From positions 3,374-19,698 of the forward strand of contig JALTYW010000049.1 of assembly GCA_027046415.1 (NCBI GenBank): a stretch of 16,325 nucleotides of DNA. The letters run 5' to 3'. The DNA is from Sulfurovum sp. Lineage in GTDB: Bacteria; Campylobacterota; Campylobacteria; Campylobacterales; Sulfurovaceae. A program made the position numbers and the translations under genes. Positions 432 to 3,022 of the stretch are shown in pieces (positions within the stretch are counted from its first letter, which is position 1; each line of letters begins with the position of its first letter). Below the pieces are notes generated by a model. The model worked only from the letters and a program-made list of their open reading frames with translations. It was not told the origin of the DNA and ran no database searches.

Positions 432-1226
432 GTGTTGTTCACTTTTTTAAAAACGATATGGCAGAATAAAAGACTGTTATGGTCACTGATCAAAAATGAT
501 TTCAGACAGCGCTATCTTGGCAATGTCCTCGGTATTGCATGGGCATTTATCCAACCGACCGCTACCATTCTGATTTTCTGGTTTGTTTTTCAGGTTGGAT
601 TCAAATCACAGCCGGTCGATAATTTTCCGTTTATCCTCTGGCTGGTTGCGGGAATGTTCCCCTGGTTTTTCTTCGCGGAAGCACTCTCTACCGGTACAAA
701 CAGTATCATCGCCAACGCATTTCTGGTTAAAAAAGTGGTCTTCCGTGTCAGCTTGCTGCCTATTATCCCGCTCTTTTCCGCATTAATCGTTCATCTTTTC
801 TTTATCTTTTTCATGCTCGGTATGTTCCTCTACTATGGTTACACGCCCGATATATATGCACTCCAGCTCTTTTACTACCTCTTCGCTCTCTCCATACTCG
901 TACTCGGACTTTCATGGATCACCTCATCTGTGGTTGTCTTTTTCAGAGATATGGGACAGCTCGTTTCGATGCTGATTCAATTTGGGTTTTGGCTGACACC
1001 AATCTTTTGGTCTATGAAAATGATCCCGGAAAAGTACCACTGGATCATTGAACTCAACCCCATGGTATACATTATCGAGGGGTATCGTAACAGTATGATC
1101 TACCACAAGTGGTTCTGGGAAGACATGCATATGACCCTCTACTACTGGAGTATCACACTTACCCTGTTTGTTCTGGGAGGACTAACGTTTAAAAAACTGA
1201 GACCACACTTTGCGGATGTGTTATGA
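432..1226 (+). CDS. wzm: Polysaccharide ABC exporter permease (Wzm, ABC-2 family)
   Basis: A 264-residue integral membrane protein, the usual length for Wzm/RfbA permeases. The N-terminus has the family motif LIKNDFRQRYLGNVLG (about residues 19-34), followed by about six hydrophobic segments and the C-terminal LNPMVYIIEGYRNSM motif (about 215-229). It would form the inner-membrane channel that moves undecaprenyl-diphosphate-linked glycan to the periplasm with Wzt. An in-frame TAA at 423-425 limits the start to GTG 432 or TTG 435. The AAAGGG at 424-429 is better spaced for TTG 435, so either is possible. The end (RPHFADVL) looks intact. Its partner wzt, normally adjacent or overlapping, lies 416 bases downstream because another gene has been placed between them. 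Confidence 0.93.
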   Translation: MLFTFLKTIWQNKRLLWSLIKNDFRQRYLGNVLGIAWAFIQPTATILIFWFVFQVGFKSQPVDNFPFILWLVAGMFPWFFFAEALSTGTNSIIANAFLVKKVVFRVSLLPIIPLFSALIVHLFFIFFMLGMFLYYGYTPDIYALQLFYYLFALSILVLGLSWITSSVVVFFRDMGQLVSMLIQFGFWLTPIFWSMKMIPEKYHWIIELNPMVYIIEGYRNSMIYHKWFWEDMHMTLYYWSITLTLFVLGGLTFKKLRPHFADVL

Positions 1227-1228
1227 TG

Positions 1229-1270
1229 TGTTCTGTGTTACGTATTCCGTTTTCTGTATTCCGTGTTACG
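1229..1270 (+). repeat. Degenerate 7-bp tandem array, left flank of the four-helix gene
   Basis: Six consecutive heptamers can be read in register: TGTTCTG, TGTTACG, TATTCCG, TTTTCTG, TATTCCG, TGTTACG. The approximate consensus is T[G/A]TT[C/A]CG. The array begins 2 bases after the wzm stop and ends 26 bases before the ATG of the four-helix-bundle gene. A related array lies on the opposite strand on the other side of that gene (1678-1726). The 14-base stretch at 1257-1270 matches the reverse complement of 1713-1726 at 11 of 14 positions. Confidence 0.75.
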
Positions 1271-1296
1271 AATGCCAGCTTCCAAAGGTATACTAA

Positions 1297-1653
1297 ATGA
1301 AATGTGAAAAGTTGGATGTTTGGAAAAAAGCAACACGTTTGTCCTCTGATGTTTATAAGACCTTTGCAAAGTGTAAAGATTTTGGTTTCAAAGACCAGAT
1401 CACACGTTCAGGACTTTCTATACCAAGCAATATTGCAGAGGATATGGAAAAGACATCCGTAAAAGAACAAATTCGTTTTTTAGACATTGCCAAAGGCTCA
1501 ACTGCAGAATTTGCTACACAAACGTATATTGCAATGGATATAAAATATATAGAAAAAGAAGTAGGCAGAGAGTGGATAGATGCAGCTGACCATCTCATAG
1601 CAATGATCACAAAACTTCAACAATCTCTGAGAAGGAAACTGGATGCCAACTAA
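1297..1653 (+). CDS. Four-helix-bundle protein (S23/23S rRNA IVS-encoded family)
   Basis: 118 residues, the typical length of the TIGR02436 four-helix-bundle family. Hallmarks are LDVWKKA near the start (6-12), SIPSNIAE (41-48) and IAKGSTAEFATQ (64-75), followed by a final amphipathic helix with ADHLIAMITKLQQSL. The usual glycine after IAE is Asp49 here. The start ATG has an AAAGG (1284-1288) eight bases upstream. Biochemical function is unknown for most members; relatives are found in 23S rRNA intervening sequences, and Avd binds RNA or the reverse transcriptase in retroelements. Nothing links the protein to polysaccharide chemistry. It overlaps the next gene by 11 bases (ATG of wzt at 1643, TAA here at 1651-1653), so it is placed to be translationally coupled to wzt. 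No reverse transcriptase or template repeat is visible nearby. Confidence 0.9.
   Translation: MKCEKLDVWKKATRLSSDVYKTFAKCKDFGFKDQITRSGLSIPSNIAEDMEKTSVKEQIRFLDIAKGSTAEFATQTYIAMDIKYIEKEVGREWIDAADHLIAMITKLQQSLRRKLDAN
1632..1636 (+). promoter_or_regulatory. Ribosome binding site that fixes the wzt start
   Basis: AAGGA lies six bases before the ATG at 1643 and inside the last codons of the four-helix gene. An in-frame TGA at 1628-1630 lies just upstream, and there is no in-frame ATG, GTG or TTG between 1643 and the codons of the ATPase core near 1834. This site and ATG are therefore the only conventional way to start Wzt. Confidence 0.7.
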
Positions 1654-3022
1654 AAACACACTCCAATCCTCAAAAAACACGACACGGAAGACCGAACCCG
1701 GAACCCGGAACCCGGAACCCGCAATACAAGTTTCCAATCTAACCAAAATCTACCACCTCTACGATCACCCTCAGGACAGGCTCAAAGAGGCACTGAATCC
1801 TTTCAAAAAGTCCTACCATCACGACTTCTATGCTATGCAGGGGGTCTCTCTTGAGATCAAAAAAGGTGAAACCGTCGGGATCATAGGGAAAAACGGTGCA
1901 GGAAAATCGACACTGCTGAAGATGATCACCGGGGTTCTCAACCCCACCCACGGAGAGATCAAAACGTACGGGACTATCGCTTCTCTTTTGGAGCTTGGTG
2001 CCGGTTTCAACCCTGAAATGACAGGTCTGGAGAACATCTACCTCAACGGAACCCTGATGGGCTTCACCCATGCACAGATGGAAGAGAAAGTTGAAGCCAT
2101 TTTGGCATTTGCCGATATTGGCGAGTTTATACACCAGCCTGTCAAGATGTACAGTTCAGGCATGTTCGCAAGGCTGGCATTTTCTGTTTCAATCAATGTT
2201 GAACCGGATATACTCATAGTCGATGAAGCGCTCAGTGTGGGGGACATGGCATTTCAGATGAAGTGTTTCAAAAAGTTTCAGGATTTTCAGGCAGAAGGGA
2301 AAACCATTCTCTTCGTTACCCATGCACTCGATACTGTCATTCGGTACTGCAGCCGCGGCATCGTCATCGATGAAGGCAGGATTGTCTTTGACAACACCCC
2401 GAAACTTGCAGTCGATGCATTTAAGAAGATCCTTTCAGGCAACTTCTACGGCAAGGAAGATACCCTGAAAGAATCAAACGAGAAAGCAAAAGAAGACACC
2501 GCCACATCGACCGAACATACCAATCCGCTTCCAAAACAGCAGTTGCTGAAAGCATCTTTCGACACGCACAGAGAACGCGACACCTACGGCAACAACAAAG
2601 CGGTCATCACAGATTACGGCATTACCGACAGCAGTGGTACACCCACAGCAATTCTCGACTACGACAGCGAATTCAAGATCATTATGGAAGTCACATTCAA
2701 CCAGACCGTGACCGAGCCCATATTTGCCTTTACCATCAAGGATCTCAAAGGCTTAGAGATCACCGGCACCAATACACTGATGAAACATACACTGACGGGA
2801 ACATTTGCCAAAGGAGAACGCGTAACGGTCTCATTCACCCAGAAAGCGAACCTGCAACTGGGGAAATATGCCCTATCACTTGGCTGTGTAGCGATCAACG
2901 AAACAGGGATAGAGGTTTTCAACAGAGTCTACGATGCCATACTCTTTGAAGTGATCGGATCGGTTCAAATGGTCGGTTTTTATGATCTTCAGAGCCATAT
3001 TACTGTGGAGAAAGGATATTGA
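1643..3022 (+). CDS. wzt: Polysaccharide ABC exporter ATPase with C-terminal glycan-binding domain (Wzt)
   Basis: 459 residues. The nucleotide-binding domain has Walker A GKNGAGKST (82-90), signature region SSGMFARLAF (171-180), Walker B DILIVDEAL (189-197) and the switch His227 in FVTHA. A charged linker (about 270-300) leads to a C-terminal beta-rich domain (about 305-459) of the Wzt_C type. In E. coli O8/O9a that domain binds the capped end of the glycan and licenses export. Family homology begins around residue 27 (AIQVSNLTKIYHLY). Residues 1-26 are extra: they are encoded by the end of the four-helix gene region and the heptamer array at 1678-1726, which gives the low-complexity EPGTRNPEP. 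The native start codon seems to have been lost. The stop overlaps the next ATG at TGATG (3020-3024). Confidence 0.95.
   Translation: MPTKNTLQSSKNTTRKTEPGTRNPEPAIQVSNLTKIYHLYDHPQDRLKEALNPFKKSYHHDFYAMQGVSLEIKKGETVGIIGKNGAGKSTLLKMITGVLNPTHGEIKTYGTIASLLELGAGFNPEMTGLENIYLNGTLMGFTHAQMEEKVEAILAFADIGEFIHQPVKMYSSGMFARLAFSVSINVEPDILIVDEALSVGDMAFQMKCFKKFQDFQAEGKTILFVTHALDTVIRYCSRGIVIDEGRIVFDNTPKLAVDAFKKILSGNFYGKEDTLKESNEKAKEDTATSTEHTNPLPKQQLLKASFDTHRERDTYGNNKAVITDYGITDSSGTPTAILDYDSEFKIIMEVTFNQTVTEPIFAFTIKDLKGLEITGTNTLMKHTLTGTFAKGERVTVSFTQKANLQLGKYALSLGCVAINETGIEVFNRVYDAILFEVIGSVQMVGFYDLQSHITVEKGY
1678..1726 (-). repeat. Degenerate 7-bp tandem array, right flank, translated into Wzt N-terminus
   Basis: Read on the minus strand from 1726 to 1678 the heptamers are TATTGCG, GGTTCCG, GGTTCCG, GGTTCCG, GGTTCGG, TCTTCCG, TGTCGTG. 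On the plus strand the core is AACCCGG three times (1695-1715) plus a partial copy. The unit is the same family as the left array (1229-1270) but in inverted orientation. Twenty-one bases of exact repeat equal seven codons, so the array stays open in the wzt frame and encodes a Pro/Glu/Arg/Thr-rich leader. Confidence 0.8.

Follow-up and report, generated by a model that had tools for sequence, protein, structure and literature searches.

Why does a small gene for a four-helix-bundle protein stand between two genes that normally touch, with short repeats of opposite orientation on either side? The question is raised by a 16,325-nt stretch of DNA from Sulfurovum sp. (assembly GCA_027046415.1, contig JALTYW010000049.1, positions 3,374 to 19,698 of the forward strand; the whole stretch is called the window), in which a gene of the IVP family separates the ABC-2 permease gene wzm from the ABC ATPase gene wzt. 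We consider it likely that what is seen here is a single copy of a compact, widespread insertion element, an account that takes in recognition of the element ends, movement by host functions and the dispersed solo arrays described below. Such an element, about 0.4-0.6 kb long, would consist of a short-repeat array, an IVP gene and a second, inverted copy of that array. IVP genes of many bacterial groups are bracketed by arrays, both arms carrying the same unit in inverted orientation; the arrays form the insert edges at three unrelated sites compared in empty and filled form; and unit and period follow the protein rather than the genome. The class would include 23S rRNA intervening sequences (IVS) that bear an open reading frame (ORF), at least one of which has the same design. 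Loci (L) and genomes (G) are cited by handle, and published papers by PMC number for the excerpts of their text that were available.

Arrays at the edges of three inserts

The features of the window locus are as follows.

1229..1270, + strand: left array of six heptamers, TGTTCTG/TGTTACG/TATTCCG (TRF 1228-1267; lag-7 score 12.0)
1297..1653, + strand: IVP (23S-IVP/four helix bundle) gene, 118 amino acids (TIGR02436, PF05635, NF008912)
1692..1720, - strand: right array of inverted heptamers, GGTTCCG (CGGAACC on the + strand; lag-7 score 21.5; TRF 1694-1721, 100% matches)
1229..1720, no strand: whole insert, about 492 bp (empty-site comparison)
1226..1228, + strand: ATG at the wzt start-codon position of empty relatives, left edge of the insert (junction comparison)
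432..1226, + strand: wzm, ABC-2 permease (PF01061, 70.2 bits)
1643..3022, + strand: wzt, ABC ATPase (PF14524, PF00005)

An earlier note on this DNA, made from the letters alone, had assigned the gene to the TIGR02436 four-helix family, and both profile scores lie above their cut-offs (TIGR02436, 102.7 bits against 24; PF05635, 108.9 bits against 33.8). The AlphaFold2 (AF2) model has four helices (pLDDT 95.8), a four-helix bundle as in the solved relatives 2gsc and 2rld. The six heptamers that the note placed on the left were confirmed to the base: TGTTCTG TGTTACG TATTCCG TTTTCTG TATTCCG TGTTACG, in this order, fill exactly 1229-1270. Of the seven placed on the right, four are good units at about 1692-1721 on the opposite strand, while the other three (two at the left and one at the right end) are degenerate, the weaker units starting at about 1678. 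When each flank was shuffled base by base 20,000 times, the observed lag-7 scores were never reached. Over the whole 16.3 kb no lag-7 peak is higher than these two, the next listed window scoring 6.

The stop codon of wzm overlaps the former wzt start (TGATG), and the left array begins immediately after the old wzt ATG. The right edge of the insert, roughly 490 bp away, lies directly before GCA ATA, the Ala-Ile of native Wzt. Codons 1-26 of Wzt are now derived from the insert, starting within the IVP gene and reading in frame through the right array; the insertion replaces a few Wzt codons. The IVP gene is the sole gene recognised inside the insert, and, as the note had said of recombinases, no recombinase or transposase was matched among the 12 window ORFs given to Pfam, which cover the window up to its last 600 bases.

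Comparison with relatives identified the empty site. Thirty wzt loci were fetched, and 26 junctions, including that of the window, were readable (the other four are L192 and L201-L203). Seventeen were empty, with a junction reading of 56-78 nt and a stop/start overlap in most, in agreement with the claim that wzm and wzt normally touch. Six were filled with IVP genes of at least two types: the window; L183, with the window type and the same array family; L180, with the window type and decayed arrays; L187 and L191, with another type and other heptamers; and L184, with a decayed IVP (25.8 bits). The remaining three comprise L190 (an unexplained 237 nt), L198 (a second wzt-like piece) and L200 (other sequence, in which no IVP or arrays were found). 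L190 might be what is left of a cassette, although it showed neither array nor IVP. Since the junction also holds the unrelated sequence of L200 and the wzt-like piece of L198, it may be a general insertion spot.

The second site is the 23S rRNA gene. G171 has three equal-scoring IVP matches, each within 23S sequence (an Rfam match over L054, and the same insert at L153 and L171). The insert sits, with arrays at its edges, in a hairpin loop that we take to be helix 45, and the same-genus genome G168 has a short hairpin at that position. The IVP family had been called otherwise orphan apart from 23S IVS and Avd; this is narrowed, as the ORF-bearing 23S IVS of G171 (L054) shares the design of the window insert. 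Five relatives of G171 (L156, L158, L163, L166 and L167) carry 128-222 nt at the same 23S loop, compared with about 36. At that length they cannot hold an IVP gene; they may be remnants, or else IVS of another kind.

The third site lies between nrdB and nrdA on a Nostoc edaphicum plasmid, where eight AGTAGGG-type units, an IVP gene and about five CCCTACT units follow one another; in Calothrix NIES-4105 these two genes occur together without arrays and IVP. The edges of this insert were read by eye, the pairwise alignment having misplaced the gap. Empty wzm-wzt, 23S and nrd sites therefore exist, each with arrays at the edges of the filled counterpart, as the note's proposed empty-site check had anticipated. 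No target-site duplication was visible at any of the three sites, the window insert included, and a few bases look replaced; short target duplications could be hidden because the compared genomes have diverged.

A second IVP match occurs in the genome of the window (L001; 65.7%-complete assembly of 260 contigs), bracketed by inverted arrays of a different heptamer, TTGGTTG-type on the left and ACCAGAA-type on the right. The description of the repeat as one degenerate heptamer thus fits the window locus, while other loci have other heptamers, octamers or hexamers. In L001, short heptamer arrays at 272-294, 2468-2498 and 2938-2966 lie, as judged by eye, in or at the start of sugar-biosynthesis coding regions; they are possibly translated as protein parts.

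Distribution and anatomy of the flanking arrays

IVP matches were found in 77 of 150 genomes sampled within the family and in 36 of 298 sampled across the phylum. The analysis comprised 192 IVP loci in all; L078 (same contig and gene as L010) and L271 (same place as L044) were dropped. A lag-7 score of at least 12 was reached by 122 of 260 windows near IVP genes and by 17 of 248 far windows, compared with 2/2080 and 0/3120 single-base shuffles. In the first set (52 loci, drawn from these family and phylum samples) the counts were 57/104 near windows of 250 bp and 11/99 windows 1 kb off. The second set contained 79 loci from a collection with one genome per species (80 of more than 580 candidates, one duplicate dropped) and gave 65/156 near and 6/149 far windows at score 12. 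At lags 4 to 20 other than 7, only 0-3 windows responded, except at the harmonic lag 14. The second set was also raised at lags 8 and 16 (20/156 and 13/156) because some loci carry octamers.

ParE toxin genes of the same genome set provided a second control, in which 0/42 windows reached the lag-7 threshold. Nine of 30 ParE loci were dropped because their length fell outside the full-flank range; the 21 that remain are a small control, though a fairer one than the far windows, which are mostly coding. By a loose criterion (period 6-8, score at least 9), arrays were present on at least one side in 172/192 IVP loci and on both sides in 118/192. The corresponding counts were 113/129 and 73/129 in an IVP subset, 25/117 and 2/117 at far-window loci, and 2/21 and 0/21 at ParE loci. 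Inverted flanking arrays are hence strongly enriched around other members of the family, which is what the earlier note had proposed to check. Arrays on at least one side occurred in Bacteroidota (40/49 loci), delta/Desulfo-type bacteria (8/9), Firmicutes (5/5), Verrucomicrobia (2/2), Treponema (2/2), Patescibacteria (2/3), Nitrospira (1/2) and Cyanobacteria (1/1), the groups being our own assignment from the record titles.

The arrays have a regular anatomy. At a score of at least 11, upstream arrays are G-rich on the gene strand in 94/102 cases and downstream arrays C-rich in 111/119, and 78/102 upstream and 94/119 downstream arrays contain 4-5 units. The modal array length is 30-33 nt, typically about 31 nt, and complete cassettes measure 452 nt in the median (106 loci). 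Between the end of the upstream array and the profile match lie about 16-85 nt (5th-95th percentile); on the other side, the downstream array is close to the IVP stop. Tests of arm matching were restricted to loci with both arrays. In 60 of 65 such loci (both scores at least 9) the arms match better inverted than direct; mean arm similarity was 5.22, against a permutation maximum of 3.74, and for 58 left arrays the own right array was among the best seven of 65. The paired arrays of one locus therefore match each other, whereas arrays differ between loci. Inverted octamer arrays surround some IVP genes (L080, L109, L148, L274 and others), and hexamer arrays occur at L011-L013; the octamer, hexamer and core-count analyses were conceived after inspection of the data.

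Six of the 27 plasmid records with an IVP match were inspected. Strong two-sided arrays occur in L310 and in the block common to L308 and L309; L311 has weaker ones (8.5 and 10.0), and L312 and L313 (identical gene) have the upstream array only. The block shared by L308 and L309 (2956-3333), which are two Calothrix brevissima NIES-22 plasmids, contains a phage-integrase gene, the IVP gene with AGGGTGT arrays and hypothetical genes. In L312 and L313 (1965-2330), the Trichormus plasmid IVP gene stands in a row with a TrbI/VirB10 gene and is perhaps a domesticated copy. A search of 50,697 phage records with one query protein returned no match at E<=1e-6. Several IVP genes lie a few to some tens of kb apart in G033, G391, G201, G090 and G102. 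Between the first two of four IVP matches in G033 (737-747 kb), two adjacent tRNA genes of equal Rfam score (L053, 10755-10931) are found near heptamer arrays.

Repeat unit, protein and solo arrays

Our analysis revealed that unit similarity rises with protein identity (Mantel r 0.285; maximum of 2000 permutations 0.064; 106 of the 192 loci, those with both arrays). L005 and L148 were left out of the protein alignments owing to a stop codon in the translation. For proteins of different genomes with 70% identity or more, unit similarity was 5.54 of 7 (78 pairs), while divergent IVP proteins of one genome had 3.30 (14 pairs), equal to the background of 3.31 of 7. The link is weaker where the outer flanks are non-homologous and is still present, at 4.68 for pairs 70-80% identical (27 pairs) and 5.90 for pairs above (3 pairs). 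AAGAGTG-type units, for example, accompany related proteins in G033, G120, G090, G014 and G038 with non-homologous flanks.

The period behaves likewise. Loci of mixed or no period were excluded, and on a FastTree tree of the remaining 168 of 192 proteins the label 6, 7 or 8 changed 11 times, against a minimum of 19 in 500 shuffles; within Bacteroidota alone (38 loci) it changed 4 times against a minimum of 6. Among octamer-only loci, the nearest protein was also of the octamer kind in 13/20 (permutation mean 2.3, maximum 10). That the repeat changes along with the protein suggests that the protein reads or makes the repeats.

Solo arrays were counted in sampled stretches without a listed IVP gene: seven IVP-plus genomes (640 kb) yielded 33 and seven IVP-minus genomes (400 kb) yielded 3. 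Most are sized like flanking arrays, and 21/36 lie outside open frames of at least 150 residues, though such frames hold 89% of the bases. In size they resemble the dispersed heptamers of Xanthomonas, Nostoc, Geobacter metallireducens and Beggiatoaceae, for which a preference for four units (PMC4692102), four tandem units (PMC2700814) and two to six copies (PMC4679880) have been described.

Element model, alternatives and known systems

The solved relatives 2gsc and 2rld contain five chains each, and an X. campestris relative is described as a toroidal homopentamer (PMC4990558). IVP genes are under purifying selection (median ratio of nonsynonymous to synonymous substitution rates, dN/dS, 0.176; 230 usable of 765 pairs). 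An IVP ring would recognise its own array, and the ends of the element are probably recognised in this manner; an array of about 31 nt would offer about five conserved-core repeats, perhaps one for each subunit. A comparable case is the TRAP ring with its triplet repeats. In RNA, a long stem is predicted to form between the two arms. The predicted duplex of own arms had a median of -30.4 kcal/mol, against a mean of -10.7 for swapped arms, and the predicted folds of 89/106 cassettes have half or more of the left arm paired with the right (77% in L054; 48%, just under half, in the window copy, L002). RNase III cuts the stem of the paired ends in 23S IVS (PMC4990558). If host RNase III cut the paired arms here, insertion in rRNA or, by extension, between operon genes would be tolerated. 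Movement would depend on host functions without an element-encoded recombinase, annealing or recombination at the arrays being our guess at the route, and the solo arrays would be single ends or sites of the same system.

Several observations weigh against the insertion-element account. No array was detected by the loose criterion at 20/192 IVP loci, the same criterion responds at 25 of 117 far-window loci, and at lag 7 alone both sides score at least 9 in only 104/190 usable loci. Direct matching of the arms was better in 5/65 loci (L103, L112, L123, L143 and L151), a mirrored unit order between arms was sought and not found (mean z 0.41), and octamer arrays, being of mixed length, do not tell "five cores" from "about 31 nt". 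Homologous flanks give higher unit similarity than non-homologous ones (5.55 versus 4.68 at 70-80% identity), so inheritance at one site accounts for part of the link between unit and protein. The IVP-plus genomes G084, G134 and G023 had no solo array in 40-60 kb, and all three IVP-minus solo arrays came from G024. Solo arrays fit resident IVP units only weakly better than those of other genomes (above random other-genome sets by 1.4 sd in G033, 1.9 sd in G020 and 2.9 sd in G042), and the one solo array of G061 fits worse than random sets; we do not rely on this match. Movement of the cassette was not seen: the collection, with one genome per species, showed no recent copies that had reached new sites within a species.

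The arrays could be simple repeats, born by slippage or prone to form G-quadruplexes (G4), in or beside which IVP genes merely land. The available excerpts on dispersed heptamers in Xanthomonas, Nostoc, Geobacter metallireducens and Beggiatoaceae make no mention of IVP (PMC4692102, PMC2700814, PMC4679880), and the density in G033 (16 in 240 kb) extrapolates to more solo arrays than lie beside its nine IVP matches. We nevertheless regard this as improbable, given the matching inverted pair within a locus, the arrays at insert edges, the few arrays in the sampled IVP-minus genomes and the fact that unit and period vary with the protein, which already disfavours it. The arrays might also serve as an operator through which an IVP ring regulates its own or neighbouring genes, the cassette spreading passively by homologous recombination or gene transfer. 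The positions of the arrays near gene start and stop, their fixed size, the conserved protein and the regulatory roles proposed for TAACTGA heptamers (PMC4679880) agree with this idea; the occurrence of IVP genes in 23S rRNA as well as at unrelated junctions, the arrays on both ends and the different IVP types sharing one junction do not. As the whole explanation it is unlikely, although a regulatory role and the insertion element are compatible and not exclusive.

A retroelement like that of Avd, in which IVP would serve a reverse transcriptase (RT) copying the cassette RNA, appears very unlikely. Avd of diversity-generating retroelements and IVP have the four-helix-bundle fold in common, a resemblance noted in PMC10053308, but no RT is linked to IVP here: there was no RT match in the 12 window ORFs or in the 65.7%-complete genome of the window, and no association across 150 genomes. 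Dependence on a Y1 transposase was equally unsupported, with no match in the 12 window ORFs or in the same incomplete genome, and PF01797 in 58/77 IVP-plus and 55/73 IVP-minus genomes (p 1). In REP/RAYT systems, a gene is flanked by inverted copies of a genome-dispersed repeat, like the IVP gene; the IVP element differs in having arrays of 6-8-mers instead of palindromes and no association with a Y1 transposase. Insertion sequences and miniature inverted-repeat transposable elements (MITEs) are likewise defined by inverted ends, whereas the IVP insert has no transposase and no target-site duplication was seen at three sites; a MITE, being non-autonomous, would also carry no transposase gene.

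The closest known system is the ORF-bearing 23S IVS of Coxiella burnetii, which shares the protein family and complementary ends with the window element. Immediately before its ORF stand two or three tandem GACAGAT heptamers, in a number that differs from strain to strain, together with a degenerate copy, and its inverted repeats pair in a 28-bp stem; older proposals that the IVS ORF serves mobility are cited in the same paper (PMC4990558). The window copy has such stem-forming ends in its inverted arrays, but lies outside rRNA, between the protein genes wzm and wzt. Beyond the Coxiella case, two-sided arrays recur here across phyla, unit and period track the protein, and solo arrays are dispersed. 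IVP genes in cas loci are noted in PMC3936711, PMC8700078 merely names the protein in its available part, and none of the terms sought is present in PMC11270868, on rRNA inserts of CPR bacteria. In the excerpts of open-access literature examined, we saw no statement of the general rule that two-sided arrays are general, form insert ends outside rRNA and track the protein in unit and period.

Array enrichment and the empty-site comparisons support the interpretation of the window feature as a small cassette, which the earlier note had put forward. A bolder version is tentative and in our view somewhat doubtful: the IVP ring may specify the sequence and period of the repeat, with five cores per array and one per subunit, and make or read many of the "orphan" dispersed heptamers, the 23S IVS being only the ribosomal branch of a transposase-free class. 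With unit and period tracking the protein, binding could be tested directly: dozens of protein-array pairs occur in nature, and mismatched combinations would serve as controls. The insertion element would provide a common frame for three separate puzzles: the function of the S23/"four helix bundle" protein, the way in which 23S IVS entered rRNA, and the degenerate heptamers with which some bacterial genomes are littered.
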